DNA of 35,168 bases from an uncultured Candidatus Melainabacteria bacterium (GTDB taxonomy: Bacteria > Cyanobacteriota > Vampirovibrionia > Gastranaerophilales > Gastranaerophilaceae): positions 1 through 35,168 of the forward strand of contig CATJOM010000056.1 of the NCBI GenBank assembly GCA_949741915.1. The letters are read 5' to 3'. Under the pieces are notes generated by a model, which saw nothing but the letters and a program-made list of their open reading frames with translations, searched no databases and had not been told where the DNA came from. Positions 12,859 to 29,033 of the stretch are shown here, one piece after another; the stretch's first letter is position 1, and every line of letters starts with the position of its first letter. A program made the position numbers and the translations under genes.

Positions 12859-15800
12859 TTATTCCTGTGAAACGCTGGCATTGCTTTTCGTTCCATCATT
12901 TTGGAATTTTAGTGATTTAATTGAACTTGGTTTTGCAATTGGCCCTAGTATTGTTACCTGAAAGTTTTTTGCTGCTTCTGTGTCATTACCATACAATGCT
13001 GGCACATTTGCAGTATCGTTCGCTGGAATGGGTCCAAATAAAGGATTGGTTTTTTCTTTTATTATGCTTGTCAAAACCTGTCCGGCAGTTTTTTGCTCTC
13101 CCTGGGTTTCATTTTGTTCGGTGGTGTTTTGAGCATTCTTGATTGAGCCTAATATTGCAAGTCCTGTTTGTACTGCCTTGTTGTCAGAGTATTTACTGCT
13201 TAAATTATCAACAGCCTTATTTATTGTATTTTCAGCAACAGTTGTTACTTTTTCAACCGTAGATTGCATTTTATTAACACCCAGGTTTCCAAGTACATCT
13301 GCAACCTTAGAGGAAACTTTTCCTGTTATCTTCAGGTTTGCATTATTATTCATTAGATTATAGGTACCACTTGCATAAAGGCTCATATTGGGACCTTGCG
13401 ATTTAAAGTTTGAAACTCCTGCTATACCTTTGTTAAATGTAAGAATTCCTGTTATATTCTTAAATTCTTGCGTATTAAGTGTGCTTACCTTTGATGTTAC
13501 GTTGTTTAAAATTGCATTAAATGTTCCAAGATTTAGTACATTCGCAGCATTTATAAATTTTGCAAAACTTATGTTTTCGCCATACTCGCCATCTTTAACT
13601 TCAAATGTTACAGTGCCACTTAAGGTTCTTAGTTGTTCTTCAAGTGTTGCGCCTGAAAGGCTTACCTTTGCGCTGCCAGCGAGTGTTCCGCTTCTAACAA
13701 TGTCTATACCTATAAATGCCTTTGAGGCATCCCTCATAGCTATGTTTTCAGCTTGCATGTCAACACCTATTTTGCCATTTAATACATTGTAAGAGCATTT
13801 TCCGCTTGCTGTTCCTTGTGCAAACTTTGCGTTTAAATTGTTTAAATTGTAAATATTTTTTAATAGATTGTGTGAGTAATTAATATCCTCAATTATTAAC
13901 CCGCCTGATTTTAATTTGGCAATTTTTGCATTTCCTGTATTAATTGTGGCACCTAAATCTTGCGGTTGTGTATTTTTGACAGAAGATGCAGTTTGGGCTG
14001 GGGCTGGCATGGTTTTTATAATCTTGTCTGCAAGCTTAATCAAGGCATCGGTATCAATATAGTTTGAGTTGTAATTTAAACTGTTGATTATAATTCCTTT
14101 GCTAAAGTTTGTTGAAATGTTGGCGTCTCCTGAGAAATCAGAATTTGCAACCTTTACATTGTCAAGCTTTGCACTCATAATACTTTTGTTAAAATTCATT
14201 GCCAAACTTTCAAGTGTCAAGCCATAATCAGGATAATTTAGTGCATCAATGTTGAGATTACCAGTTATATTGGGTGAAAAAGCTTTTCCTGAAAGACTCA
14301 TATTTCCTATTATATTCATGCTTGCCCTCCCAAGCATTGGAATTACAAGTTTTGTCTTATTTGGAATATTTATATTTATATTTGAAATGATTGGCTCTTT
14401 TGCGTAAATATTTTTAACCTGCCCTTTTATTTCAGCCAACTTTCCGCTTGAGGATTTTGCTGAAATTGTATCAATCTCAAGCGCGTCGTTTTTTACTGCC
14501 ATTTCTAAATTTAAGCTGTTTACTAAACCATTAACAGCAGGAATTTCAACAACACTTATATAATTAGCTGGGTTTGATGAAACAGTTCCATTTATTCTTA
14601 TATTATCAAGCGCCCCTATAACCGTAGCATTGTATGGCATATTTCCTTGATGGGTCACAGAGCCTCTGAATTCTTTTGGAATAAAAGCTAAAACTGTTGC
14701 GGGGTGTACATTTCCGTTAACTTTGATATTAAGCTCAGGATTTTGCATATAATTTTTAATATCGCCCGAAATGTTTATTTTTGTTCCCTCTAGAGATGAA
14801 TTGAATGGCTCAAGAGTGATATTTGTCATATCTGCTGCAATTTTTATATGTGCCGCATTATAGGCGAGTTTAGGTTCTTGCATTGATGCGCTTACGTTTT
14901 TAACATTTATTGCGGCATTAATATCATTTTTGTCCTTTGGTCTTGCAATAATATTGATATTTTCAACACTTAATGGCATCTGTGCGCTTTTTACAAGCAT
15001 ATTAAAGTTGTTTATATCAACATCTGCCTTTGGCTGAATATTTTTAAAATCTCCTAAGATATTTACAAGTACAGTTAAATCGCCGTTATTAAACTGAAAA
15101 TCAGCAATATCCTTTTTGTTTACAAGTTTAAACTCAGTTGCGATATTAATCAAATCCTTGATTTTCAACGGGTCTGATTTTATGTTTAAATTTACATCGG
15201 AATTTGAGGCAATTTCACCATTAATGCTAAATTTTGCGCCATTCACCAAGGCGCTTGTATCTTTAATGTTTAATGCATTGTTTGAAAAATCTAGGAATGC
15301 CTGCATTTGGCTTAAAAATAAACCTGCGTTCGCATAGCTTATATTTCCATCAACAAGCCTTAATTCGCCGTTTGATTTTATTGTTTTTAAATTCGTATCT
15401 AAATTGAAGCCGCCCTTAATATAGCCTGCAGCAGTCATATTCTTTATGTCATTATCAACACAGCATATATCAAGCAATGCAGCTGCAATATTAACCAGGC
15501 TCTCTAAGGCAATTTTATCTGTCCTAATATCTAAATTGAGCTTTGGTTTTTTTCCAGTCCTAAAGCCGCTTTTTGTTTCAATAAATTCTGCATTTGATAT
15601 AAAAAGCTTTGAATTAATATCTATATCTCTGTCCTTAAAGTTAAGATTGAGGTAACTTTCAGGAAGTTGTATGTCGCTTAATTTAAGGCTAAAATTTTGG
15701 ATATCAACATTGCCCTTTGCCCTGAAGTCTTCAACATTTTTTATATCCAGTTTGGCAATAATATCGGTTTTTAAATTAAAATCTTCTAAAGTCTTAAATG

Positions 15801-16605
15801 GGTTAAAAATCAATTCAGGCATTTCTTTGCCATCTTGTTTTTTGCCTGCAGTCTCTTCATTTGTTGTAATTTTAGGGAGTTTTGTCTTAAAATCTATATC
15901 GAAATTGGCAAATTTGATATCAGTATCCTTAATCCCCACAAATCCCTTTGTTTTAAATGATACAGGGCCCGATAATGATTTCATTGAAAATACAGAATTG
16001 TTTAGTTGCGTTAGATAAGTCTTATTTTCGTTTTCATCAATCACATGAAGTGCAATTTTCCCGGCCTTTATGTTTATGTTCTGAATTTTAACTGGGAAAT
16101 TGAAGCCTTGGCTATTTTGCTGTGTCTGTTGTTCGCCACCGGCTTCTGCTGTCTTTAGAATATTATCTACATATTCCATTACAGTGTATTTTTTATCTTT
16201 TGTAAAAATAAGGTAGCCACCAGCTTCGTCGGCCTTGATTTTATCAAGGTTTATATGCCCGATTAAAAGCGTAGGTATATTTAATTCTATTTCAGGATTT
16301 TTAAGGTTAAATAATGGACTATTATCTTTATAGTTTATTGCAAAGCTGTCTGCCTGCAGTTTTATGCCAAATTTAAAGGTGGTTCGGAGTTTGACATTAT
16401 CAGCAGCAAGTTTCAGGTCACTGATTTTTTCAACCTCGCTTGACACCATTGGTATAAAATTGTTAAGATTTATGAAGTATGGCACTATTAAAAATAAGAT
16501 ATAAACTGCTGCAAAAATTCCTCCAGTAACAGCGGCAGTTATTTTGAGTTTTTTCTTTGCTGTTTCATTAATATTTAATATGCCCTTAAAACTTTTAAAA
16601 TCCAT
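12859..16605 (-). CDS. AsmA-family giant envelope protein
   Basis: A 1248-residue protein with one N-terminal membrane helix (about residues 22-46). An AsmA-type N-terminal region follows, then a long series of beta-strand repeats. The C-terminus has an AsmA-like domain (LRTLSGTVTFEVKDGEY, then ITGILTFNKGIAGVSNFKSQG, then LYASGTYNLMNNNANLKITG). Such proteins form long hydrophobic grooves in the periplasm; relatives (TamB, YhdP, YdbH) are implicated in moving phospholipids to the outer membrane. It is the last gene of the tonB-exbB-exbD-exbD cluster, with a 38-base gap after the second exbD. The ATG at 16605 is preferred; a GTG two codons upstream (16611) is possible. The C-terminal ~100 residues are Asn/Gln/Thr-rich and probably disordered. 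Confidence 0.85.
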   Translation of the reverse strand: MDFKSFKGILNINETAKKKLKITAAVTGGIFAAVYILFLIVPYFINLNNFIPMVSSEVEKISDLKLAADNVKLRTTFKFGIKLQADSFAINYKDNSPLFNLKNPEIELNIPTLLIGHINLDKIKADEAGGYLIFTKDKKYTVMEYVDNILKTAEAGGEQQTQQNSQGFNFPVKIQNINIKAGKIALHVIDENENKTYLTQLNNSVFSMKSLSGPVSFKTKGFVGIKDTDIKFANFDIDFKTKLPKITTNEETAGKKQDGKEMPELIFNPFKTLEDFNLKTDIIAKLDIKNVEDFRAKGNVDIQNFSLKLSDIQLPESYLNLNFKDRDIDINSKLFISNAEFIETKSGFRTGKKPKLNLDIRTDKIALESLVNIAAALLDICCVDNDIKNMTAAGYIKGGFNLDTNLKTIKSNGELRLVDGNISYANAGLFLSQMQAFLDFSNNALNIKDTSALVNGAKFSINGEIASNSDVNLNIKSDPLKIKDLINIATEFKLVNKKDIADFQFNNGDLTVLVNILGDFKNIQPKADVDINNFNMLVKSAQMPLSVENINIIARPKDKNDINAAINVKNVSASMQEPKLAYNAAHIKIAADMTNITLEPFNSSLEGTKINISGDIKNYMQNPELNIKVNGNVHPATVLAFIPKEFRGSVTHQGNMPYNATVIGALDNIRINGTVSSNPANYISVVEIPAVNGLVNSLNLEMAVKNDALEIDTISAKSSSGKLAEIKGQVKNIYAKEPIISNININIPNKTKLVIPMLGRASMNIIGNMSLSGKAFSPNITGNLNIDALNYPDYGLTLESLAMNFNKSIMSAKLDNVKVANSDFSGDANISTNFSKGIIINSLNYNSNYIDTDALIKLADKIIKTMPAPAQTASSVKNTQPQDLGATINTGNAKIAKLKSGGLIIEDINYSHNLLKNIYNLNNLNAKFAQGTASGKCSYNVLNGKIGVDMQAENIAMRDASKAFIGIDIVRSGTLAGSAKVSLSGATLEEQLRTLSGTVTFEVKDGEYGENISFAKFINAANVLNLGTFNAILNNVTSKVSTLNTQEFKNITGILTFNKGIAGVSNFKSQGPNMSLYASGTYNLMNNNANLKITGKVSSKVADVLGNLGVNKMQSTVEKVTTVAENTINKAVDNLSSKYSDNKAVQTGLAILGSIKNAQNTTEQNETQGEQKTAGQVLTSIIKEKTNPLFGPIPANDTANVPALYGNDTEAAKNFQVTILGPIAKPSSIKSLKFQNDGTKSNASVSQE

Positions 16606-16643
16606 ATTCACTTCTTCATCTTCCCTGTTTATTATATTTATTT

Positions 16644-17030
16644 TTAGAATTCAGTTATTGAAATGCTGTTAATTCCAGTATTTCTTGCAGTATCCATTAG
16701 TTTTACAACGGCTCCATGGTCACTGTTGCCATCGGCTTCAATCATAAGACCACCGTTTAATTCTCTTGATTTTTCTTTTAATGTGGATGCAAGCAATTTT
16801 TCTGGCACTTCGGCATCATCTATAATGTATTTGTTATCTTCAGTTACAGTGACTGTTAAAATTTTGTTTTCCTTTGGTGTGTCGTCAGTTTTTTCAACAT
16901 AATCTGGTATAGCAAGGTTTAACCCTTGTTGATCAAGCATTGGCGCTATAACCATCATAATAATCAGCAGTACCAAAAATATATCTGTTAATGGTGTTAT
17001 GTTAATTTCATTAAAGGTTTGTCTTTTCAT
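16644..17030 (-). CDS. exbD: ExbD/TolR family protein, second copy
   Basis: A 128-residue inner-membrane protein with a short cytoplasmic N-terminus and one membrane helix containing the proton-pathway aspartate D16 (in ITPLTDIFLVLLI). A periplasmic domain ends in the typical IEADGNSDHGAVVKLMDTARNTGINSISI pattern, given here only as a position guide (about residues 95-125). Together with ExbB it converts proton flow into motion of TonB/TolA. AGGAAAGA precedes the ATG by a few bases. It follows the first exbD by eight bases. Its membrane-helix DNA is identical over 80 bases to that of the neighbouring copy, while the periplasmic domains differ strongly. The two copies may form a mixed ExbD dimer. 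Confidence 0.92.
   Translation of the reverse strand: MKRQTFNEINITPLTDIFLVLLIIMMVIAPMLDQQGLNLAIPDYVEKTDDTPKENKILTVTVTEDNKYIIDDAEVPEKLLASTLKEKSRELNGGLMIEADGNSDHGAVVKLMDTARNTGINSISITEF
16940..17019. repeat. 80-bp perfect direct repeat, copy A (second exbD)
   Basis: Bases 16940-17019 are identical to 17407-17486. The block encodes the FNEINITPLTDIF...VIAP membrane helix region of both exbD genes. Flanking coding sequence has diverged, so identity at all synonymous positions suggests recent gene conversion or a recent partial duplication. Confidence 0.9.
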
Positions 17031-17038
17031 TGTCTTTC

Positions 17039-17524
17039 CTATTGAATATTTTGGCTTTCTTCGTTGTCTTGTTTTAGTTTTTCTTGTTCTTTTTTGCTTA
17101 AAGGCTCTCCCGCCACAACAAGTTTTTCAAAACCTGCTGCCTGCGCTGCCCTCATTATTTTCATAATTTCAGAGCTTTTAGCCTTTTCATCAGCTTTTAC
17201 AACTACTTCCTTTTTATCTTCATCCTTGGTGGCAGAAGATGCAATTTGGACTAGTTTTTCCTCAAGAGTAGTTTCATCGGCCATTTTTTCTCCATTCAGG
17301 AAAAACTCACCTTCTTTTGTTAGTGAAACAGTCGCATTCTTTTCCTCAATGCTTAAACCTGAATTAATCTCTGGCATTTTGATATTATTATCCATGGATT
17401 GAAAGCTTGGCGCTATAACCATCATAATAATCAGCAGTACCAAAAATATATCTGTTAATGGTGTTATGTTAATTTCATTAAAGGTTGAGCGTTTTCCGTC
17501 TTTAGCTGTTGTTCTGATTGCCAT
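17039..17524 (-). CDS. exbD: ExbD/TolR family protein, first copy
   Basis: A 161-residue homologue of the next gene, with the same membrane helix and conserved aspartate (D25 in ITPLTDIFLVLLI). Its periplasmic domain is longer and more charged (EEKNATVSLTKEGEFFLNGEKM, then EVVVKADEKAKSSEIMKIMRAAQAAGF as the family's C-terminal pattern, cited by position about 55-140). The C-terminal tail is Lys/Glu/Gln-rich. AAGGAC lies upstream of the ATG at 17524. It follows exbB by 19 bases. Two exbD genes after one exbB are known from other TonB and Tol clusters, where both can be needed. Confidence 0.92.
   Translation of the reverse strand: MAIRTTAKDGKRSTFNEINITPLTDIFLVLLIIMMVIAPSFQSMDNNIKMPEINSGLSIEEKNATVSLTKEGEFFLNGEKMADETTLEEKLVQIASSATKDEDKKEVVVKADEKAKSSEIMKIMRAAQAAGFEKLVVAGEPLSKKEQEKLKQDNEESQNIQ
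17407..17486. repeat. 80-bp perfect direct repeat, copy B (first exbD)
   Basis: Identical to 16940-17019 in the same orientation, 467 bases away. Because both copies hold the same reading frame position, recombination between them would delete one exbD and leave a single intact hybrid gene. Confidence 0.9.
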
Positions 17525-17543
17525 TTTGTGTCCTTTTGGTTAA

Positions 17544-18191
17544 TTATAGAGATAAACTGCTTGCATCTGTATATTTTGTTTCTTCATCGGAATCAATAAA
17601 ACTTAAGAATACAAGTTTGATTAATTTAAAGTCTGATTCAAAGCGGGTAACGACACTCTGAAAATAGTTAAACAATACAACTGCAACAATAGCAACACCA
17701 AGACCGAAAGCAGTTGCAATAAGTGCTGAAGCGATACCGGTTGCAACGGCTGCTGATTGGTTTCCTTGTACAGCTAAATCTTGGAAAGTATATAGAATTC
17801 TTACAACTGTGCCAAATAATCCTAGGAATGGAGCAACGCCGCCAATTGTACCTAATATATTTAAGCCCTTTTCAAGTTTTCTTGCCGCAAGAGATGATGA
17901 GATATCATATGCTCTTGAAAATCCGGATCTTTGTTCTGTATAGATTCTAAGGCCTTCATCTACCATTTCTGCAATTATTCCGCCAAGCTGCGCTGAAATC
18001 CTCTGAGCTGCGCCTATATTGTTTTTTGCAAGAGCTTTTTGAAGACTTTGTATGAATTCTCCAATATTTCGCTGGTTTTGCTTATAATAGATTAATTTAT
18101 TTATGGCAACTGCGATAACTAAAACCGAGCAAATAAATATCGGCGTTAGAACGGGCCAATCCATTTTAATTGATTCAAAAAGTAAATCCAT
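17544..18191 (-). CDS. exbB: ExbB/TolQ/MotA-family proton channel protein
   Basis: A 215-residue inner-membrane protein with three membrane segments (about 15-32, 108-133 and 145-175). The family signature is the helix pair GTIGGVAPFLGLFGTVVRIL and AVATGIASALIATAFGLGVAIVAV. The cytoplasmic loop lies between the first and second helix (GEFIQSLQKALAKNNIGAAQRI). It forms the pentameric stator around the ExbD dimer and drives TonB/TolA. AAAGGAT lies upstream of the ATG at 18191. It is the second gene of the cluster, 30 bases after tonB. The family alone cannot tell ExbB from TolQ; the TonB-type first gene favours ExbB, but no pal or tolB is nearby. Confidence 0.93.
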   Translation of the reverse strand: MDLLFESIKMDWPVLTPIFICSVLVIAVAINKLIYYKQNQRNIGEFIQSLQKALAKNNIGAAQRISAQLGGIIAEMVDEGLRIYTEQRSGFSRAYDISSSLAARKLEKGLNILGTIGGVAPFLGLFGTVVRILYTFQDLAVQGNQSAAVATGIASALIATAFGLGVAIVAVVLFNYFQSVVTRFESDFKLIKLVFLSFIDSDEETKYTDASSLSL

Positions 18192-18221
18192 AATTTTATC
18201 CTTTATTTTCTGTATTTATCT

Positions 18222-19445
18222 TTATCTGTAGCTTGCGCCAAGTACATTGTAGTCAAATGTGAATTCAATATCGATACTGCTTCCTTTAAATTCAGGAGGA
18301 AGGGGTTTAAATGGTGCTGTTAATTCAATTGCTGCCTTTGCGGCTTCATCATTGGCTACAGAGCCTGAGCTCTTTCCTACCCTTATTGACAGCAGCCTAC
18401 CGTCTCTGCCTATTTTAAATAGTACTACTACGCGCTTTGAGGCATCTCCCTTTGGCGGGTTCCAGTTGCGTTTTATTCTTCGTTCAAGCTCGCGCATATA
18501 TGGTCCCCAATCAGGTGATTTTATTGCATCTATGCCTGGAGGGCCTGAGGGGTTGCCGGGGCCGGGGTTACCCATATTTCCTCTGCCATAGCCGGTTCCT
18601 CTTGAACCTGTGCCACCAGATGTTCCTCTTCCGGCCGAAGTGCCTCTTGAGGTTGAAAGTTGTGGAGAAGGCATTGAAGTTCCAGAGCCTCTGCCAGCAG
18701 AAGTGCTTCCTCCGCCAGAAGCGGGGCTGCCGCTTGATGTACCAGTGCCTGCGGATGGTCTTGGTCCAACTGGTGCTGCAGTTTTGGGCACTGCTACACT
18801 GAATGGGCTTTTTGGAGCTGTTGCAAGCTTTGGCATCGCTGGTTTTGGTGGTTCCGCTGATGGTTTATAAACAGGCCTTTGAACAGGCGCCATAGTTTGT
18901 GAAGGCTTTTGTGGTGCCGGCTTTTGCTGCACTGGGGCTTGAGTTTGCGTAGGTTGCTGGATTGGTTTCTGAACAGGTTTTACCTGCTGTGGCTGTACCC
19001 GTTGCGGAGCTTGTGGCGCAGGTTTATTCTGCTTTGGAGCCGGCTGAGGTGCGGGACTTGGAGCAGGAGATGGCGAAGGCGATGGCTCTGACACACGCTT
19101 GTTTGGGTCATGAATACCGCCTGCTCTTGAATTTCTGTCTGATCTGTATTTTGTATTTTTATCAATAGGTTCTGCTTCATTTGTCACAATGACAAACTCT
19201 AAGTCTTTCTTTTTCCAGTCTGGTCTGTCTGCCTTTGGTACAACCAAACCAAGCAAAGTAAGCCCTATAATAATAAGCCAGAGCATAAATACGCACAAAG
19301 GGTGCAATATTAAAGATATCACTAGAGATTTAACCAGAGACATCTCATCTTCTGTATTCGTAAACGAATTTGGAAGAGTTTTTAATTCGCTCTGTGCTGG
19401 TTCGTTCAAATCCTCGAAATCAAATTTACTTCTTAACTGTGTCAT
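18222..19445 (-). CDS. tonB: TonB/TolA-type energy transducer
   Basis: A 407-residue protein that spans the inner membrane once (about residues 41-69) after a cytoplasmic N-terminus of ~40 residues. A long Pro/Gln/Ala-rich periplasmic linker (about 115-210) is followed by a Gly/Ser/Thr-rich linker (about 225-300), which can cross the periplasm. The C-terminal TonB domain begins DWGPYMRELERRIKRNWNPP and continues with VVVLFKIGRDGRLLSIRVGKSSG and AIELTAPFKPLPPEF. It would transmit ExbBD-generated force to outer-membrane receptors or, if TolA-like, to the Tol-Pal complex. The long cytoplasmic N-terminus is unusual for TonB. The weak CGGAA upstream of the ATG at 19445 is the only ribosome binding site candidate. 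No TonB-dependent receptor gene lies in this window. Confidence 0.88.
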   Translation of the reverse strand: MTQLRSKFDFEDLNEPAQSELKTLPNSFTNTEDEMSLVKSLVISLILHPLCVFMLWLIIIGLTLLGLVVPKADRPDWKKKDLEFVIVTNEAEPIDKNTKYRSDRNSRAGGIHDPNKRVSEPSPSPSPAPSPAPQPAPKQNKPAPQAPQRVQPQQVKPVQKPIQQPTQTQAPVQQKPAPQKPSQTMAPVQRPVYKPSAEPPKPAMPKLATAPKSPFSVAVPKTAAPVGPRPSAGTGTSSGSPASGGGSTSAGRGSGTSMPSPQLSTSRGTSAGRGTSGGTGSRGTGYGRGNMGNPGPGNPSGPPGIDAIKSPDWGPYMRELERRIKRNWNPPKGDASKRVVVLFKIGRDGRLLSIRVGKSSGSVANDEAAKAAIELTAPFKPLPPEFKGSSIDIEFTFDYNVLGASYR

Positions 19446-19548
19446 ATTTTTCCGTTGTTTTTGTCTTTGATTATTATTTATTACATATTGTTAATAAATA
19501 AAATAGCCAGACTAACTAATCTATTTTGACAGTATAAACAAAATGAAA

Positions 19549-20271
19549 CTAATAATTATATATATTTGGTGCTGAAACCGTTATTGGCTGGGTAAAATAA
19601 ATATCAAGCATGACATTTGCTGGTATTTCAACATTTTCTCCCTTTTGTCTTGCGGCATTGGCAACTCCTATCCCGGCACCTACGGCTGTGCCATATATAG
19701 CACCTCTGCCGACAGAACCTCCTGAAAGTGCTCCCATTGCTGTACCTAGTGCGGCACCAGCGCCTGCACCAGCAATAGTGTTTTTGCCGTAATCTTTTGC
19801 ACTGTCAAGTTTTGTCCCGCCTTTCAGGATTCCAGTGTTGTCATCTGTTTTAAATACTGCATTTATGGCGATATTATATCCTTGAGGTGTCCTTAAATTG
19901 TTAAATATTACCTTTATTTGTCCATTTCTGTTTGCAAAGCCGGCCTTTTTGCACTTTACAACCGTGCCAAGCAGTGTGCTTCCTTCTTGCGCAATAGTTT
20001 GTCCATTATAAGTAATTGCATTTGGCAGTGTCACCATAACAGAAGAGCCAAGAGAAGTTGTTTGAGAGCTTAATGGTGCCGATAAAATAGCTGGCGCTGT
20101 AATTCCTGCAGGAACGTATACAACCTGCCCTTGCAGGGTTCCTGAATTAGAATAAGCGCTACTTTGTGTGGTATATGAATAATTTGAAGCTCCAAAAGCG
20201 GCAGGCAAAAATGTTGATATTAAGCAAAATCCAGCCATAAAAATGCTGAATTTTTTTATTATATTTTTCAT
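19549..20271 (-). CDS. Exported glycine-zipper protein with VirB10-like beta domain
   Basis: A 240-residue protein with a clear signal peptide (KNIIKKFSIFMAGFCLIST, cleavage probably after AAFGA near residue 28). A beta-rich domain follows (about 48-150: YVPAGITAPAILSAPLSS, then GSSVMVTLPNAI, then AQEGSTLLGTVVKC) whose layout resembles the VirB10/TrbI C-terminal fold. Next is a glycine zipper (about 168-208: AGAGAGAALGTAMGALSGG), then a last strand region with VEIPANVMLDIYF. Glycine zippers often insert into or cross membranes. The likely location is periplasm or outer membrane. GAGGAGG lies just upstream of the ATG at 20271. It ends 103 bases before tonB and may belong to the same transcription unit. 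Confidence 0.7.
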   Translation of the reverse strand: MKNIIKKFSIFMAGFCLISTFLPAAFGASNYSYTTQSSAYSNSGTLQGQVVYVPAGITAPAILSAPLSSQTTSLGSSVMVTLPNAITYNGQTIAQEGSTLLGTVVKCKKAGFANRNGQIKVIFNNLRTPQGYNIAINAVFKTDDNTGILKGGTKLDSAKDYGKNTIAGAGAGAALGTAMGALSGGSVGRGAIYGTAVGAGIGVANAARQKGENVEIPANVMLDIYFTQPITVSAPNIYNY

Positions 20272-20350: not shown

Positions 20351-20977
20351 TTATTTGTATAATTCAAATCTTTCAATGTCATCAGACATTGAATTGTAAT
20401 CTTCATCCAGCATTATATATACAATATCACTTGTAGGTATTGTTAAATGCCTTCCCATTTCATACTCTCCGCTTGGAACATACTGTAAAACACCAGCTCT
20501 TTTCCAGTACATGCCTTCCCTTGGGTGAACAGTTTTGTTATAAGATGCGGGGGGAGTCAGATCTCCGCCAAGCTGAGTTTTACCATTTTGCACAATTGTT
20601 CCTTTTATTTTTTTAATTGTGCCATCAGGAAGAATGCCTTCTGTAATTTTAATTACAATTGCAGCATTTATGCCTTTTATAGGCATTTTTAGCATTTCAA
20701 TATAGCCCCTAAAGTAAGTATTTTTTGGAAGAACTTTAACTTCTTCCATCCAAAGGTCTGTAGGGTTGATAAAATAAACAATATCACCCTCATTTAATGC
20801 TGCTGTAGATATTGTTTTTGCAGGGTATGCCTGCAGCATTACTCCTTTTGAAATTATTGCGCTGTTTTCAAAGCTGGTTGCTGAAAAAGCAGCTTGAGAA
20901 TCAAAAGCTTTATTAAGTATCGATATGCAGCATATTGTAATCAGAATAAAAATATTAATTAAAATTCTTTTTGCCAT
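20351..20977 (-). CDS. Exported beta-rich protein, possible relative of the glycine-zipper protein
   Basis: A 208-residue protein with an N-terminal signal sequence (ILINIFILITICCISIL; cleavage perhaps near residue 30, DSQAAFSA). The mature part is beta-rich. It follows the same order as the neighbouring glycine-zipper protein: a variable start, GDIVYFINP, a KVLPKNTYFRGYIEMLK stretch parallel to AQEGSTLLGTVVKCKK, a hydrophobic strand, and a closing LTIPTSDIVYIML parallel to VEIPANVMLDIYF. It has no glycine zipper. I do not recognise a named family. The ATG at 20977 has no Shine-Dalgarno sequence; a TAAAAT lies seven bases upstream, so a leaderless transcript is predicted. It diverges from the 1537-residue AsmA-like gene and is followed 79 bases later by the glycine-zipper gene. 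Confidence 0.7.
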   Translation of the reverse strand: MAKRILINIFILITICCISILNKAFDSQAAFSATSFENSAIISKGVMLQAYPAKTISTAALNEGDIVYFINPTDLWMEEVKVLPKNTYFRGYIEMLKMPIKGINAAIVIKITEGILPDGTIKKIKGTIVQNGKTQLGGDLTPPASYNKTVHPREGMYWKRAGVLQYVPSGEYEMGRHLTIPTSDIVYIMLDEDYNSMSDDIERFELYK

Positions 20978-20984
20978 AATACAT

Positions 20985-21036
20985 ATTTTAAGCTATTTTT
21001 CAATTTTTGCAAAAAATCGGTTTTGTGTTCTATAAT
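20985..21036. promoter_or_regulatory. Divergent promoter pair sharing one palindromic -35
   Basis: TTGCAA at 21007-21012 is its own reverse complement. On the plus strand it is 18 bases from TATAAT (21031-21036), which ends six bases before the ATG at 21043. On the minus strand it is 16 bases from TAAAAT (20990-20985), which ends seven bases before the ATG at 20977. Neither gene has a Shine-Dalgarno sequence. Both transcripts are therefore predicted to be leaderless. A single RNA polymerase could occupy the site at a time, so the two promoters should exclude each other. Confidence 0.55.
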
Positions 21037-21042
21037 TTTTTT

Positions 21043-24000
21043 ATGAAGCATGACGAGAGCAAAAATAATAATAAATTTATAAATGTTGGTTTGATATTTA
21101 GAATCATCAATATTGTAGTCTGTGTGCTCTTTGTCTTCTGTCTTTTGATTTATGCAAATCTAGGGAAAATTGCAACATCTATATTGAATCCTGATACAAT
21201 CAAGCAGGCTGTTAATAAAAATACCGGGCTGCTATTAGATTTATCTGAGCCTAAAATTTCTTCAACAAAGGATTTGTGCATTAAAATTACCGCACCTGTA
21301 ATTATTCTGTCAGAGCCCAATAACAGTCCTTCAAATCTTTTAAATATTAAAAATGCTGAAGTGAGCCTCAAAATATTGCCACTGCTTTTTAAAAAAGTTG
21401 AGTTTAAAAAGCTCACAGCGGATGACTTAACTATAAATATAATCCGAGCAAAGGATGGCGTATTTAATTTTCAAAAATATCTGAAAAATGATGCAAAAAT
21501 GCCATTTAAGTTGCAGGCAAAAAATACTATTATTCTGGTTGATAAATATACCTTGGATTTTAACGATGAGATAAACAATACAAAGGCGCAAATTTCGGGT
21601 GAAAACCTTATATCATCAGAGTTTAATCTTGATAGCTATGCAGATATTAAAACTAAAGGCATAATTAAAATCGCAAACCGGAATAAGGCCCAAAATTCGC
21701 CGTTTGCGCTAGATATCAAGCTAAAATTTCCGCTAGATAAAAATCTTGGTTTTGATCACTCAAAATTTACAGCAAGCGTGCAGGATATTGATTTTTCACT
21801 TTTTAAACCATACATTTCAGAATTTATATCTAAAGATATCAGGGATTTTAGTGGCCATGGCACCTTGTTTATTATGCCTTCAGGAAACACTCAGAACTCT
21901 ATTACCTTTAAATTGAATACCAGTGATTTATTTATAAAAATTTACAAAAATAAACATGATAACTTTATTAATATAAAAGATAAGGCCGATATTCTCCTTG
22001 CTGCCCGTTTCAAGAAAAAAGAGTTAATTGTTGATGATTTTAGTTTTCAAAAAAATAAAATAAATATAACAGCCAAAGGCACTATTAAAAACATAACCAA
22101 AAATTTTAACAGTATAAATCCGGACATAGTTTTAAAAATAAAAAATTCATCTCTTGCTGAGGGTTTAAAAACTGCTCCTGATTATCTTTTTAAGATGCAG
22201 CAGGATTATATTCCACTCTTAAAAAAATACAATGCTAATGGCATTGTTAATGGCGAATTCAGGGTTAAGGACCGTGTCAGGTTTCCTAATATGTATGGAT
22301 ATATTAAACTTGATGATGTTTATCTTCTTGAAAGGCCGAAGAATGCAAAAACTTCGTCAGGCGAAGTATTATTTGACGGCTCAGATGTTACAATAAATAT
22401 AAATGCCAATTGCCCTAATAATCAAAAAGTTATAGTAAAGGGAAGAACTGAAATAAAAGAAGTTCCTTTTGCAAAGTTTGATATTCAATCAACCCCGGCT
22501 ATTGATATTGAATTTGCCCATAAAATTTTAATTCCTATCCATGAAATTTTTGGTTTTCAGCTCGGCCCACTTCCTTTTATGAAAGTTTCAGGTAATGGTC
22601 AGATTTCACTTAAAACTGAAGGTACAAGGGAAAGTGCTAAATTAAATGGTTTCTTTAGGACAAAAAATGGCAGGGCTTCCCTTGATGGGCTCAATACGAC
22701 CCTGTATAATGGCAATTTGAATCTTTTATTTAACGGAAAAAAGATTGTTTTCGATAATACAACAGGTTTGGCAGAGGGTGCAAAAGTTAAAATTGATGGC
22801 AATTCTGATGTTGAGGGTAATCTTGATTTATATGTAAAAATATTTGATGTAAATGCAGAAAAGGCGCTTGGTGTTGTAAAAACAAGTGAAATGATTTTAG
22901 GCCTCTTGAATGGAGGTGCTTTTCTTGATTCTTACACAAATCCCAAGGGAAATATTGATTTTAATATGCGTCTTTGGGGAAAGGCTGAGGAGTTTAGTGG
23001 TTCAATGAATTTTGAACCCAATGATAACCTCAAGGCTAAAGGCATAATATTATTTAAAAATAATGCTATAGATATTTTTCCCGAGATTAAAGCCTCAAAA
23101 GTAAATGGAAATCTTGAATTTACAGATTTTGTCACCCTTAATCTAAATGCGAATATTTATAATTCACCATTCAACATAACTGGTACTATTAAGCCTGATA
23201 CAAAAGCTTCAAAAATAAGAGCCGAGCAGCCACAGATTGTGGATTTAGCATTTAAATCAAAGTCTGCTTCGTCTTATGATTTATATAAATTTTTCTACGA
23301 TAATCAAGATGCGTTTCAATCTAAAAACAAAATAAGCAGGGAATTATATGAATTTTTGAATAAAATTAATTTTAAGTTTGCAGCCGATATAAGAGCAAAG
23401 GGTAAAGTTAATCCAACCGACACCATTCTTGATATGAAAAAATTCACTCTTGATGGCTGGGCAGTTGGTTTAAATAATAAAAATTCAGACGTTTTGTTTA
23501 ATTCAGGTATGGTTAAATTCAAAGACCAAAAACTCCTGTTTAATAATTTGAATGCAACCCTCTGGAATGCAAATGTAATAACAAATGGCAATGTTGATAA
23601 AATTTTTGATGATATATTTATACCTGATTTGAAATTCAACCTGGTATCATTTCCATTCTCAAAAATAACAGACCTTACATCTGTAATTGATGAAGATAAA
23701 ATCAAAAAGATACTCAATGATTATACTGATTTTTCAGGAAGTATAAGTGGTGATTTTTTCTATAATAAAAATGGTTTCAGTGGAAACACTAATTTAAATA
23801 AAGTTTCTCTGTATGATAAAAAAAGAGACGTACCTGTAAACTTAAATAGTGGTGACTTAAGATTCTCAAATAATCAACTCAGACTAAATGCTCTTAATAT
23901 GACATATGGCGCGACACCAGTCTATCTTGATGCCGTTATTGATGATATAAATTGCGCTCTTCCAAGGTTTAATGTCTATGTTTCAACTAATTTGAATGAG

Positions 24001-25656
24001 GAAAGCCTCGATAAACTTTTAAACCCTATGCTGCAGTTTCCACTTAAAACAAAAGGCGAACTAACACTAAAAGGCAGACTCAGGGGGCAGTTTGATAATT
24101 ATACAGCATTTGGAACAGTTATATTAAATCCTCAAACAGATTTATATTTTATGGGAGCAAACCTTGGCGATACTCAAAGCAAGAGAGAAATAAATACAAG
24201 AATTGATTTTAGAAATGATGAAATAAGAATAGGGCACATAAAATATCAAAAATACATACTATCTCAAAATAATAAAGAAACTCCTTATGAAATGCTAAAT
24301 GTTTCAGGGCTAATTAAGACTATTGGAAAAGATATCATTTTCAATAATCTCAGGGTAAAAACCCCAAATCCTGCTCCTGCAAGGCTGTTAAACCCTGTAT
24401 TTAAAAAATCAGTCTTAAAGCAGGGAACCCTTAGTGCTGATATTTTATTTAATGGACCTATTTTAAAACCAAATGTTAATGGTAGTGCCAGGCTTTCTAA
24501 TGTTGATGTGCCTTTGTATGAGACACAGGTAAGAGACGTTGACTTAACGCTTGATGATAAGTTTATAAATGCCGTTCTTGAAGGTGAAGGCATGGGCTCT
24601 GATGTCAAATTTAAAGCGCAAATTATAAATAGTGCTGCTTTGCCGGTTGTTGTAAATAAGGCAGAAATTACATCAAAAAAACTTAATTTAAATAAATTTA
24701 TCAACAGTCTATCCAATATTTCAAAAGCGCAAAAAACTACCGATCCTGCAAATAAACAAACGCAATTATTATCGCCTGCTGATTTTGAAATCAAAAATGG
24801 CAAATTTACCGTCGATGAAATTTATTATAATAACATTAAAGCCTCTAATCTTTCAGGCTCCTTTAAACACACAAAAGATGGTAAGTTCATATTTAATGAC
24901 ATTCTTTTTGATATCGCAGGCGGTAAAATAAAAACAAATGGCAGCTATGAATTTGCTACCACGAAATTTACTATAAATTCTGAAATTACCGATTGTGATG
25001 CCAATACCCTGGTTACAGATATTCTTGGCGCCAAAAACCAAGTTTTTGGTAAAACAAACGGCAAAATTTACTTCACAGGAACGGAACTAAATACCGCAAG
25101 CAGTATAAACAAAGTGAAGGCTAATGTGGATTTTGCCATATATGATGGCAAAATGCCAAAGCTGGGCTCTCTTGAGTATCTCTTAAGGGCGGGAAATCTC
25201 GTAAAAAGCGGCATTCTTGGTTTTACCATAAATAATGTTATAGAGGTGTTGATTCCATATAAAACTGGTGAATTCAAAAAAATATCGGGTGATTTTATTA
25301 TTGAGGATGGTAAAATTGACAAAATGAGTATATATTCAAAAGGCGATAATTTAAGTATATACACAAATGGCAGTTATGATATCGCAACTAAAATCGGTGA
25401 TTTTGAAGTTTTTGGAAAACTTTCTACTAAAATTTCAAATCTGCTCGGTCCGGTTGGAAATGCTTCTCTTAACTCTTTTTTAAATCTTTTCACTGATGAT
25501 AAAATTGATAAAAAAACAAAAGAAGGTATAATTAAGGATGTTGAAAAAATACCGGATATTGCAGGCTCGTCTTCTGATTTTAGGCTTTTTGCCGTTAAGA
25601 TTTTAGGAGATATGAATGCTGATAATTTTGTAAAAAGTTTTAACTGGCTGAACTAG
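21043..25656 (+). CDS. AsmA/TamB-like giant envelope protein
   Basis: A 1537-residue protein with a short cytoplasmic N-terminus, a membrane helix at about residues 14-36 (IIN...VLFVFCLLIYANLG), and then some 1450 residues of beta-strand repeats as in AsmA, YhdP and TamB proteins. An AsmA-like C-terminal domain is visible (KVKANVDFAIYDGKMPKLGS, then GDFIIEDGKIDKMSIYSKG, then IGDFEVFGKLSTKISNLLG). It probably forms an elongated hydrophobic groove across the periplasm and could move lipids to the outer membrane; that role is family knowledge plus inference. The ATG at 21043 was chosen rather than the in-frame TTG at 21007, since the latter is the proposed -35 box. It is the second giant of this class in the window, flanking the ton cluster on the other side. 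Confidence 0.83.
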   Translation: MKHDESKNNNKFINVGLIFRIINIVVCVLFVFCLLIYANLGKIATSILNPDTIKQAVNKNTGLLLDLSEPKISSTKDLCIKITAPVIILSEPNNSPSNLLNIKNAEVSLKILPLLFKKVEFKKLTADDLTINIIRAKDGVFNFQKYLKNDAKMPFKLQAKNTIILVDKYTLDFNDEINNTKAQISGENLISSEFNLDSYADIKTKGIIKIANRNKAQNSPFALDIKLKFPLDKNLGFDHSKFTASVQDIDFSLFKPYISEFISKDIRDFSGHGTLFIMPSGNTQNSITFKLNTSDLFIKIYKNKHDNFINIKDKADILLAARFKKKELIVDDFSFQKNKINITAKGTIKNITKNFNSINPDIVLKIKNSSLAEGLKTAPDYLFKMQQDYIPLLKKYNANGIVNGEFRVKDRVRFPNMYGYIKLDDVYLLERPKNAKTSSGEVLFDGSDVTININANCPNNQKVIVKGRTEIKEVPFAKFDIQSTPAIDIEFAHKILIPIHEIFGFQLGPLPFMKVSGNGQISLKTEGTRESAKLNGFFRTKNGRASLDGLNTTLYNGNLNLLFNGKKIVFDNTTGLAEGAKVKIDGNSDVEGNLDLYVKIFDVNAEKALGVVKTSEMILGLLNGGAFLDSYTNPKGNIDFNMRLWGKAEEFSGSMNFEPNDNLKAKGIILFKNNAIDIFPEIKASKVNGNLEFTDFVTLNLNANIYNSPFNITGTIKPDTKASKIRAEQPQIVDLAFKSKSASSYDLYKFFYDNQDAFQSKNKISRELYEFLNKINFKFAADIRAKGKVNPTDTILDMKKFTLDGWAVGLNNKNSDVLFNSGMVKFKDQKLLFNNLNATLWNANVITNGNVDKIFDDIFIPDLKFNLVSFPFSKITDLTSVIDEDKIKKILNDYTDFSGSISGDFFYNKNGFSGNTNLNKVSLYDKKRDVPVNLNSGDLRFSNNQLRLNALNMTYGATPVYLDAVIDDINCALPRFNVYVSTNLNEESLDKLLNPMLQFPLKTKGELTLKGRLRGQFDNYTAFGTVILNPQTDLYFMGANLGDTQSKREINTRIDFRNDEIRIGHIKYQKYILSQNNKETPYEMLNVSGLIKTIGKDIIFNNLRVKTPNPAPARLLNPVFKKSVLKQGTLSADILFNGPILKPNVNGSARLSNVDVPLYETQVRDVDLTLDDKFINAVLEGEGMGSDVKFKAQIINSAALPVVVNKAEITSKKLNLNKFINSLSNISKAQKTTDPANKQTQLLSPADFEIKNGKFTVDEIYYNNIKASNLSGSFKHTKDGKFIFNDILFDIAGGKIKTNGSYEFATTKFTINSEITDCDANTLVTDILGAKNQVFGKTNGKIYFTGTELNTASSINKVKANVDFAIYDGKMPKLGSLEYLLRAGNLVKSGILGFTINNVIEVLIPYKTGEFKKISGDFIIEDGKIDKMSIYSKGDNLSIYTNGSYDIATKIGDFEVFGKLSTKISNLLGPVGNASLNSFLNLFTDDKIDKKTKEGIIKDVEKIPDIAGSSSDFRLFAVKILGDMNADNFVKSFNWLN

Positions 25657-25769: not shown

Positions 25770-26405
25770 ATGCAAAGACTTTTGGTTTTTTTGGCTATAT
25801 TAGTTGTTAGTGTTATGTCAAGCGCCTGTATAAATAATTTTGCAATTCAGGAACTTAATACCAAAGCTAAGGAATATCTTGATAAAGGTGATTATGATGA
25901 AGCAATAAAGCGCCTTGAATCAAGTGTTGATTTAGATGGCTCAATATATGAAGCAAGATACAATCTTGCAGTTGCTTATGTTCATAAAGAAGAATTTGCA
26001 AAAGCAGTTGTTCAGCTGAATGAAGCAATTAAATTAAATGCACAAAATCCTGATGCTTACTACACTCTTGGAGTGGCATTAGAGGGGCTTGCAAATTCTA
26101 AGATTACAGATGAAGCTAAAAACTGTGAAGAATCTCCATCTGGCTGTGAAGATAAAGTATCGGAAGATAATGAATTCTCTGTTTCATTTAAAACCGCTGA
26201 TGATGCCAAATACACTATTGATAAGTTAGATGAAGCAATTGAAGCGTATAAAAAATATCTAAATATTGCAGGCATTCCTGAAGATGCAGAAAAAGTAAAT
26301 GCTCACATAAAAGATTTAGAGGATGATAAAAACAGCTATCAAAAAGAATATGAAGCAATGATGAATCCTCTCTCAGGCGACAATCAAAATGCGGATTTAA
26401 ATTAA
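25770..26405 (+). CDS. TPR-repeat protein, probable lipoprotein
   Basis: A 211-residue protein with an N-terminal hydrophobic signal (LLVFLAILVVSVMSSAC) whose Cys at about residue 20 could be lipidated, although SSA-C is a weak lipobox. Two to three tetratricopeptide repeats follow (AKEYLDKGDYDEAIKRLESS, then YEARYNLAVAYVHKEEFAKA, then PDAYYTLGVALEGLAN). An acidic insertion with two further cysteines comes next, and then a helix (DEAIEAYKKYLNIAG) that may complete a repeat. TPR proteins are scaffolds for protein contacts. AGGGAG (25751-25756) lies 13 bases before the ATG at 25770. The TAA stop and the lgt ATG share one base, so the two genes form an operon, which fits a lipoprotein being made with its own acylating enzyme. 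Confidence 0.8.
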   Translation: MQRLLVFLAILVVSVMSSACINNFAIQELNTKAKEYLDKGDYDEAIKRLESSVDLDGSIYEARYNLAVAYVHKEEFAKAVVQLNEAIKLNAQNPDAYYTLGVALEGLANSKITDEAKNCEESPSGCEDKVSEDNEFSVSFKTADDAKYTIDKLDEAIEAYKKYLNIAGIPEDAEKVNAHIKDLEDDKNSYQKEYEAMMNPLSGDNQNADLN

Positions 26406-27199
26406 TGTTTAAAGCACCTGCAAGTGTCGCGTTCAGCGTTTTTGGTTATGATATCAAATATTATGGTGTAATGCTTTTTTTTGCCATGCTTATTGGCATT
26501 TCAACAACGGTTTTTGTATCAAAAAAATATTATAAAAATATTGATTTAGATACTCTTCTAGATTTTTTTCCATGGCTTATTGTGATTTCAATAATTTCAG
26601 CAAGAATTTATTACGTTTTATTAAGTCTTGATTTCTACCTTAAATATCCAAAGGAAATCCCTGCAGTCTGGCATGGAGGGCTTGCAATCCATGGGGCTAT
26701 TTTTGGTGGCTTAATATTTGGCATTATTTATTTTAAAATTATTAAAAAATATCCAGTGCTGCCTTATGCGGATGTTGTATCATATGGACTTTCGCTTGGT
26801 CAGTCTATTGGAAGATGGGGAAATTTTTTTAACTCGGAAGCCTTTGGGACACCCTGTAATCTTCCTTGGAAATTATATATAGCACCGATAAACAGGCCGT
26901 TTGAATATATGTCAAGTGAATATTTTCACCCCACATTTCTATATGAATCAATCTGGGATATTTTTGTATTTTTTATCCTCTTTTTTGTTGTTCGAAAATT
27001 AGCTAAAAATACACCAGGCTTTATATTCTTTTCCTACCTTGCTCTTTATTCTCTTGGCAGAATCTTTATTGAAAATATTAGAATAGACAGTGTTTTAAAT
27101 ATAGTGGGCATTCCTGTTGCACTTTTAGTGAGCCTGATTGTCTTCTTGTTATCAATATTTGCACTTATTTATCTTACCAAAATGGCAATAAGGAAATAA
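26405..27199 (+). CDS. lgt: Phosphatidylglycerol-prolipoprotein diacylglyceryl transferase
   Basis: Inner-membrane enzyme that transfers diacylglycerol from phosphatidylglycerol to the cysteine of prolipoproteins, the first step of lipoprotein maturation. The 264 residues contain about seven hydrophobic segments. Family motifs are present: WHGGLAIHGAIFGG at about residues 90-103 with the conserved His, the Lgt signature GRWGNFFNSEAFG at about 136-148, HPTFLYESIWD, and LGRIFIENIR near the C-terminus. There is no Shine-Dalgarno sequence; translation is probably coupled to the TPR gene through the TAATG overlap. A hairpin terminator lies about 175 bases downstream. Confidence 0.96.
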   Translation: MFKAPASVAFSVFGYDIKYYGVMLFFAMLIGISTTVFVSKKYYKNIDLDTLLDFFPWLIVISIISARIYYVLLSLDFYLKYPKEIPAVWHGGLAIHGAIFGGLIFGIIYFKIIKKYPVLPYADVVSYGLSLGQSIGRWGNFFNSEAFGTPCNLPWKLYIAPINRPFEYMSSEYFHPTFLYESIWDIFVFFILFFVVRKLAKNTPGFIFFSYLALYSLGRIFIENIRIDSVLNIVGIPVALLVSLIVFLLSIFALIYLTKMAIRK

Positions 27200-27453: not shown

Positions 27454-28971
27454 TTAATGCTCTATCATTGATTTTCCACTCATCTCTTCGGGCTTTTGGA
27501 TTCCCATTAAATCAAGCACGGTTGGTGCAATGTCGCATAGGGCACCGGTTTCTCTTAACTTATAATGTTCTTTATCAACAACAATAAATGGCACAATATT
27601 TGTCGTGTGGGCTGTTTGCGGAGCATGGGTTTTTTCATTAAACATGCTTTCGGCATTTCCATGATCTGCTGTGATTATCATCCTAACGCCATTTTCAAGA
27701 GCTTTCTTGGAAATTTTTCCAATGCAGTCATCTACAGCTTCAATAGCCTTTATTGCTGCATCCATCGAGCCTGTGTGGCCTACCATATCAGGGTTTGCGA
27801 AGTTTACAAGAATAAACCCATATTCATCATTGTTCAATGCTTGTAGTACATTGTCACAGACTTCATAAGCACTCATCTCGGGTTTCATATCATAGGTTGC
27901 AACCTTTGGAGAAGCTACAAGCTTGCGCACTTCAAGTTTTCCAGGTTCTTCTACGCCACCGTTAAAGAAAAACGTGATATGGGCATATTTTTCCGTTTCT
28001 GCGGTTCTAAATTGCTTAACGTTGTTTTCATCAAGCACATCACCTAAAATATTGGTCAAATGCTGCGGCTTGAAGGCAACGGCTAGGTCGAAATTCTCAT
28101 CATACTGTGTCATGCAGACATAGAATATATTCTTTAAAACCTTTTTGCGGTTGAATCCATCAAAGTCGGCGAAGGTCAAAGCCTTTGTAATTTCTCTTGC
28201 TCTGTCTGGCCTGTAATTAAAGAATATGATTGAATCTCCATCGTTTATCCTATCGCCTCCGATGACAGCAGGTTCTACAAATTCATCGCTTATATCTTTG
28301 GCATATGATTCTTTTATGGCATCAATTGCGCTATTTGCCTTATTGCCTTCGCCTAAAACAAGGCAGTTATAGGCTTTTTCTACCCTGTCCCATCTATTGT
28401 CCCTATCCATAACATAATATCTGCCAATAACACTAGCAACTGGTGGTAGATCGTATTTTTTTAATGTTTTCTCAACTTCTGAAACAAACGTTTCAGCGCT
28501 TCTTGGCGGGGTATCTCTGCCATCAAGGAATGTATGAACGTAAACTTTTTTTAAGGAATTCTCTGCAGCCATCTTTATTAAGGCTTCAAGATGTTTCATG
28601 GAGCTATGAACACCTCCTGATGAGGTTAAGCCCATAATATGAAGTGCCCCACCTGTTTCTTTGGCGTGCTTTATAGCATGCAAAAATTCTTCATTTTTGA
28701 AGAATTCTCCTTCATCTATTGCTTTATTAATTCTTGTGAGCTCTTGATATACAACCCTTCCGGCACCGATATTTAGGTGTCCCACCTCGGAATTTCCCAT
28801 TTGGCCCTCAGGAAGCCCCACATTCAATCCGTCAGCATGGATTGTTGTATTTGACATATTTTTTAGTAAACCATCAAAATTCGGCGTGCTGGCGGCCTCT
28901 ATTGCGTTATATTTTTTATCTTTTGAAATTCCCCAGCCGTCTAAAATGCACAGCAAAACTCTTTTGTCCAT
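27454..28971 (-). CDS. gpmI: 2,3-bisphosphoglycerate-independent phosphoglycerate mutase
   Basis: Glycolytic/gluconeogenic enzyme that interconverts 3- and 2-phosphoglycerate with two Mn ions and no bisphosphoglycerate cofactor. The 505-residue length is normal. Visible parts are the N-terminal metal site (CILDGWG, D11), the catalytic serine S61 in GNSEVGHLNIGAG, the substrate-binding LDGRDTPPRSAE at about 150, and the C-terminal metal ligands in NPDMVGHTG, TADHGNAE and HAPQTAHT. AGAGGAT lies upstream of the ATG at 28971. It is transcribed alone, and diverges from the 149-residue hypothetical gene with a 62-base gap. Confidence 0.97.
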   Translation of the reverse strand: MDKRVLLCILDGWGISKDKKYNAIEAASTPNFDGLLKNMSNTTIHADGLNVGLPEGQMGNSEVGHLNIGAGRVVYQELTRINKAIDEGEFFKNEEFLHAIKHAKETGGALHIMGLTSSGGVHSSMKHLEALIKMAAENSLKKVYVHTFLDGRDTPPRSAETFVSEVEKTLKKYDLPPVASVIGRYYVMDRDNRWDRVEKAYNCLVLGEGNKANSAIDAIKESYAKDISDEFVEPAVIGGDRINDGDSIIFFNYRPDRAREITKALTFADFDGFNRKKVLKNIFYVCMTQYDENFDLAVAFKPQHLTNILGDVLDENNVKQFRTAETEKYAHITFFFNGGVEEPGKLEVRKLVASPKVATYDMKPEMSAYEVCDNVLQALNNDEYGFILVNFANPDMVGHTGSMDAAIKAIEAVDDCIGKISKKALENGVRMIITADHGNAESMFNEKTHAPQTAHTTNIVPFIVVDKEHYKLRETGALCDIAPTVLDLMGIQKPEEMSGKSMIEH

Positions 28972-28997
28972 TTGTTACATCCTCTTCTATTCTGCTA

Positions 28998-29026
28998 TAG
29001 CCAATATACCATAAAAATGTTAGAAT
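28998..29026 (+). promoter_or_regulatory. Predicted leaderless promoter of the 149-residue gene
   Basis: TAGCCA (28998-29003) and TAGAAT (29021-29026) are 17 bases apart. Seven bases separate the -10 from the ATG at 29034, and there is no Shine-Dalgarno sequence. The -35 is weak (4 of 6 bases). Confidence 0.4.
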
Positions 29027-29033
29027 AATTATT

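Follow-up and report, generated by a model that had tools for sequence, protein, structure and literature searches.

A conserved pair of predicted leaderless promoters with one common palindromic -35 hexamer between divergent envelope operons of Melainabacteria

RESULTS

Two divergent envelope operons separated by 65 bp

Can a single hexamer act as the -35 element of two promoters facing away from each other, and if so, does this serve to balance the genes on either side? The question is raised by a 65-bp gap in a 35,168-nucleotide stretch of DNA from an uncultured Candidatus Melainabacteria bacterium (assembly GCA_949741915.1, contig CATJOM010000056.1), which is referred to here as the window. 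The initial annotation had proposed that TTGCAA in this gap is read as a -35 on both strands by two leaderless promoters, forcing mutually exclusive initiation for two envelope genes as a compact way to balance them. The features concerned are the following (g1 is the genus of the window, g27 the next genus).

12859-20271, minus strand: rest of the presumed minus operon (ORF order, short gaps; NCBIfam and Pfam matches)
20351-20977, minus strand: 208-aa exported protein, heads the presumed minus operon (signal-peptide-like N-terminus; without a named family)
20985-20990, minus strand: TAAAAT, predicted minus -10 (spacer 16; direct reading; kept in 11 of 11 g1 and g27 genomes)
21005-21014, no strand: TTTTGCAAAA, palindromic core around TTGCAA (invariant alignment columns)
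21007-21012, no strand: TTGCAA, palindromic hexamer, putative -35 in both directions (direct reading; unchanged in 11 of 11 g1 and g27 genomes)
21031-21036, plus strand: TATAAT, predicted plus -10 (spacer 18; direct reading; invariant in 11 of 11)
21043-25656, plus strand: AsmA-like 1,537-aa protein with a membrane anchor, heads the plus unit (Pfam PF05170)
25770-27199, plus strand: TPR protein and Lgt, possible rest of the plus unit (ORF list, family search)

Envelope functions had been proposed for both sides, and the gene content of both units agrees with this. The first plus gene had been described as AsmA-like, which was confirmed by a match to Pfam PF05170 (AsmA; 36.7 bits, cut-off 29.8). 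The first minus gene had been taken to encode a secreted beta-rich protein. A signal-peptide-like N-terminus is visible in this 208-aa protein; family searches with this protein gave no match, and its single-sequence fold prediction was unusable (mean pLDDT 36). Homologues of the 208-aa protein were found in 57 of 59 related genomes, and the same number holds for the 1,537-aa AsmA-like protein. Downstream of the 208-aa gene, the presumed minus operon encodes a 240-aa exported protein, a TonB/TolA-like, a TolQ/ExbB-like, and two TolR/ExbD-like proteins, and an AsmA-like protein of 1,250 aa. The AsmA-like proteins of the two divergent units (12859-16611 and 21043-25656) are homologous to each other (BLASTP, E=5e-15). 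Similarity was also looked for between the 208-aa protein and the one encoded at 19549-20271; as none was found, the idea that the two are paralogues was rejected.

On direct reading, the coordinates, hexamers, and spacers given in the initial annotation proved exact to the base, as did the distance of 66 bases from one start codon to the other, counted between their first positions. TATAAT is separated by 6 bases from the ATG at 21043 and TAAAAT by 7 bases from the ATG at 20977, and transcription is predicted to start at about 21043 on the plus strand and at about 20977-20978 on the minus strand. In both genes the -10 stands just before an ATG that, as claimed before, lacks a Shine-Dalgarno-like sequence, and on both strands a TTGNNN-type -35 and a TANNNT -10 are found at a spacer of 16 to 19 bp, as in sigma70-type promoters. 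TTGCAA itself agrees with the consensus TTGACA at four of six positions. Both ATGs are credible starts, because a signal-peptide-like or membrane segment comes after each of them; the next in-frame methionine codon lies far downstream.

Chance expectation for the promoter motifs

When the AT-rich region was scanned for generic consensus promoters, 9 sites were found compared to 9.7 in shuffled sequences, which is chance level, and motif matches by themselves therefore prove nothing. This result would suit a reading in which one promoter is genuine and its partner is a chance match in AT-rich DNA, the gene on that side being read from elsewhere. We defined the full configuration as two -10 elements with at least 5 of 6 matching positions, located 5 to 8 nt from the ATG, each with a TTG-type -35 at 16 to 18 bp. 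When the 65-bp gap was shuffled 100,000 times with its dinucleotide composition preserved, the plus promoter occurred in 186 of the shuffled sequences and the minus promoter in 341, and both together in none. Conservation is stronger evidence than these shuffle statistics, and it is the comparative evidence that is decisive.

Leaderless promoters as a minority class in the genome

Genome statistics were obtained for 612 kb of the 2.45-Mb assembly, comprising 419 genes with upstream sequence. In this sample, hexamers resembling a -10 peak at 6 and 7 bases before the first ATG (22 and 12 of the 419 genes), while at internal ATGs, which served as control, about 1% per position carry such a hexamer. 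About half of all genes in the sample have a Shine-Dalgarno-like sequence. Of the 34 genes in the peak, 14 have a TTG upstream of the -10 at a spacer of 16, 17, or 18; at other offsets the count is mostly 0 or 1. Across the whole assembly, TATAAT-N6-ATG occurs 93 times versus 42 times for the reversed pattern. As judged from these sequence statistics, leaderless promoters with a real -35 form a genuine minority class in this genome. Divergent gaps of 50 to 100 bp are numerous in it as well; a further one, of 62 bp, lies in the window itself at 28971-29033 and has a leaderless-type -10, TAGAAT, 7 bases from the start on its plus side.

Conservation of the layout in two genera

The comparison included 11 genomes that keep the gene pair, namely both genomes of g1 and the nine examined of g27. 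In all 11, one TTGCAA serves both sides, with TATAAT at a spacer of 16 to 19, TAAAAT at a spacer of 16 or 17, each -10 located 6 to 7 bases from its ATG, and a start-to-start distance of 64 to 68 bp; the promoter survey from which these counts were derived did not force the -35 to be shared. In the alignment, TTTTGCAAAA and TATAAT are invariant, and each of the 11 genomes has ATTTTA, the minus-strand TAAAAT, at the spacings given above. The plus spacer is 16 in one g27 genome and 19 in another, with the elements themselves unchanged. Between g1 and g27 the intervening bases are only about 50% identical and the elements are unchanged, although the 100% figure for the motifs holds partly by construction, as they were located by searching for them. 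The 208-aa proteins of these genomes are about 45 to 55% identical. All 11 genomes may trace back to one ancestral event.

Loss of TTGCAA or of its spacing in close relatives had been named beforehand as an outcome that would speak against the proposal. Neither was lost in the same genus (G001) or in g27, and the existence of two leaderless promoters with a common -35 is supported by this conservation together with the genome-wide leaderless statistics.

Separate or different promoters in other genera

The gene pair is arranged head to head in five genera of the family. In g53, the starts are about 97 bp apart, the minus -35 is TTGCAA or TTGGCA, and a separate plus -35 lies about 31 bp away. 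Some g53 minus promoters were mislabeled by the automatic calls (gap 4, spacer 19); by eye they read TTGCAA-16-TAATAT-7-ATG. In g22, the starts are mostly 83 to 104 bp apart, the minus -35 is of the TTGAAA type, and the plus promoter is separate, with about 18 to 38 bp between the two -35 elements. In g3, the distance from start to start is merely 39 to 40 bp. TATAAT adjoins the AsmA start in most genomes of g53, g3, and g22 too.

These observations bear on the reading that only one promoter is real. Both -10 elements are kept at both spacings in 11 of 11 genomes, most genomes across the five genera have the plus -10, and g53 retains the minus promoter (with TTGCAA or TTGGCA) even though its plus promoter is elsewhere. 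We therefore consider a chance match on one side very improbable.

Two further sequence blocks were noted in these genera. In the 39- to 40-bp gap of the same gene pair in g3 (L035, L074), a palindrome, TATAATTATA, is present, which could be a two-strand -10 of a bidirectional promoter with -10 symmetry, as discussed below, that replaces the shared -35. Upstream of the plus -10, a conserved block is found in g53 (AAATATGAAGAATTTTTAC; L076, L081, L100, and others) and in many g22 genomes (TTGTATGAATTTTTAGCC; L094, L099, and others). This block is absent from g1 and g27 and has the appearance of an additional promoter or regulatory element.

In a tree of the 208-aa protein, g1 and g27 group together (93/72), g3 is next, and g53 and g22 are outside; the support for the g1-g27 grouping is moderate. 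The simplest history that we infer from these sequences is that the shared -35 is derived, and that it arose when the g1/g27 ancestor lost about 30 bp in one event, after which the minus -35 acted for the plus promoter as well.

Recurrence of a shared TTGCAA at other loci

A search of 363 genomes of the family returned the pattern ATTTTA-(16-18)-TTGCAA-(16-18)-TATAAT-N6-ATG in 25, and the reversed control gave 0. Apart from the present locus, the pattern is found at unrelated divergent gene pairs. In 11 g53 genomes it marks a glycosyltransferase/TPR gene pair, in which both genes are of the leaderless type in the genomes examined; the gene names at this and the other shared loci are our reading of the sequences, made without family searches. 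In three g53 genomes (L186, L187, L188), TTGCAA at this pair is located 17 bp from both -10 elements, and both of these are 6 bases from the ATG. The g53 locus is a cleaner example of a shared TTGCAA than the window. The pattern also occurs in g25, where an unnamed protein is paired with a CorC-like membrane protein, and at a g7 pair (an exported protein and a TPR protein). In these two, the minus -10 precedes the minus ATG by 22 to 32 nt, so that the minus gene would carry a short leader. A stricter pattern, with both genes leaderless, returned g27, g53, and a TPR/NagZ-like pair in G004, again with 0 in the control.

When any WWSSWW hexamer was allowed as the center, TTGCAA accounted for 14 of 30 places, compared to about 1/64 expected by chance; after manual grouping by locus, it accounted for 4 of about 16 distinct loci. 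Divergent gene pairs with closely spaced starts, each ATG having a -10 exactly 6 bases away, were present in 174 of 288 genomes of family f1, versus 14 with control matches. From sequence, compact double-leaderless promoters look like a trait of this family. Among the matches listed, judged by eye, no peak was visible at the spacing of a shared -35, and all distances were represented. Given this spread among the listed pairs, the shared -35 is one arrangement among several and not the rule.

The wider palindrome suggested another reading, namely that a dimeric regulator controls both operons with TTTTGCAAAA as its operator, the match to a -35 being incidental. The sequence forms a perfect palindrome of 10 to 12 bp between two divergent operons, invariant beyond the hexamer. 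However, TTTTGCAAAA has 27 copies in the 612 kb, most of them within genes, and AAAAGCTTTT is about as frequent; the present locus is the only one of the 27 copies between two close divergent starts. In half of the g53 genomes the palindrome is broken to TTTTGCCAAA, yet the TTGGCA -35 at spacer 17 is retained, and the other shared loci retain TTGCAA alone, without the wider palindrome. In addition, the element is always positioned 16 to 19 bp from a -10. An operator was therefore rejected as the main reading, on the grounds that the palindrome is common within genes and is broken in g53 while the -35 is kept; we regard it as highly unlikely.

DISCUSSION

Proposed mechanism

We consider it likely that two leaderless promoters of the sigma70 type overlap in the 65-bp gap and have one -35 in common. 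According to this proposal, which is drawn from sequence comparison, RNA polymerase bound in one orientation would start the AsmA-like transcript at about the A of its ATG, whereas polymerase bound in the other orientation would start the exported-protein/TonB-TolQR operon at about its ATG. Both mRNAs would be leaderless or have a leader of 0 to 2 nt and would be translated without a Shine-Dalgarno sequence. The single TTGCAA would be the -35 of both promoters, used in turn. One 6-bp site cannot hold two sigma region 4 domains, and with starts about 66 bp apart the polymerase footprints would lie on top of each other. A polymerase bound in either orientation would need these six bases, leaving room for one enzyme at a time. 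The two promoters thus probably compete for polymerase, and mutually exclusive initiation, which follows from the geometry, is plausible. The layout probably originated when an older divergent region with separate promoters was shortened in the g1/g27 ancestor, and was probably maintained afterward by selection on both promoters.

Purpose of the common -35

A different question is what the sharing is for. It might reflect mere compaction, in which streamlining pushed two leaderless promoters together until the common -35 gave the smallest working gap, any interference being tolerated without a regulatory role; this explanation bears on the purpose of the shared -35 and not on its existence. 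In agreement with it, the pair is kept with separate -35 elements in g53 and g22 and at 39 to 40 bp from start to start in g3, divergent gaps of 50 to 100 bp are common in the genome, and leaderless pairs in divergent orientation abound, the listed matches covering all distances. Bidirectional promoters of Escherichia coli at low activity fit it as well: little competition is reported at the basal level, although it becomes clear once one direction is activated (PMC12825309). What compaction explains less directly is that the layout and the exact 10-bp palindrome are unchanged across two genera and that TTGCAA is commoner as a shared center than expected, although both observations also fit plain selection on two promoters. 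On balance, we lean slightly toward compaction.

Alternatively, the arrangement could be a selected device for mutual exclusion, such that a start in one direction prevents a start in the other and the two envelope operons are inversely coupled. The geometry, with one hexamer for two sigma domains and starts 66 bp apart, is consistent with such a device, as are its maintenance in 11 genomes and its recurrence at other loci, and a coupling would make biological sense since both units encode homologous AsmA-like proteins. However, the arrangement is absent from g3, g53, and g22, which retain both genes with separate or different promoters, so that exclusivity is unnecessary for the pair, and the E. 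coli promoters tested showed weak basal competition (PMC12825309). We consider such a device unlikely, and the original proposal of a way to balance the two genes is not upheld by these two lines of evidence; any balancing by these promoters is conjectural. As the pair works without sharing in three genera, we favor selection for both promoters within a shortened gap over a dedicated balancing switch. The broader idea that TTGCAA is a true two-way -35 in this bacterial family, selected repeatedly as the core of very compact divergent promoters of the leaderless type and imposing mutual exclusion on two operons, appears rather doubtful.

Comparison with known promoter arrangements

Overlapping back-to-back divergent sigma70-type promoters are a known arrangement of bacterial operons. 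At the present locus, too, the footprints of two sigma70-type promoters would overlap in the space between divergent genes; it differs in that one palindromic hexamer would form both -35 elements and that no 5' UTR is predicted on either side.

Leaderless genes with a -10 adjoining the ORF are well known, according to the excerpts considered of Zheng et al. 2011 (PMC3160421) and of a study on Deinococcus-Thermus (PMC12340547). The genes described there share with ours a -10 about 6 to 7 bases before the ATG, the lack of a Shine-Dalgarno sequence, and the status of a minority class; the same excerpts treat single promoters, unlike the pair found here. Most such leaderless genes of Deinococcus are without a classical -35 (PMC12340547, same excerpts), in contrast to the TTG at spacer 16 to 18 in 14 of 34 such genes here. 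In a literature search of incomplete coverage, we found no description of a palindromic -35 common to two leaderless operons and no work on leaderless genes in Melainabacteria.

A close parallel is provided by bidirectional promoters with a symmetrical -10 (Warman et al. 2021, as presented in excerpts of PMC10268837 and PMC12825309), whose starts are 7 to 25 bp apart, typically 18, and for which one of the two RNAs is often non-coding. Common to these promoters, as described there, and the present pair would be one symmetrical core element, polymerase in two orientations, divergent transcripts, and a possible steric competition. In those promoters the -10 is shared or overlapping, whereas here it would be the -35 that is shared; the -10 elements lie 40 bp apart, the predicted starts 66 bp, and both RNAs are predicted to be leaderless mRNAs. 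The present pair would thus be the -35 analogue of the symmetrical -10 promoters, and the arrangement is a variant of known overlapping and bidirectional promoters. Two full predicted promoters within 65 bp matter for the annotation of gene starts and promoters in AT-rich metagenome genomes, and a -35 shared between leaderless operons would give a simple natural test of polymerase competition. As the known bidirectional bacterial promoters rest on -10 symmetry, a conserved symmetrical -35 would be a second route to the same end.
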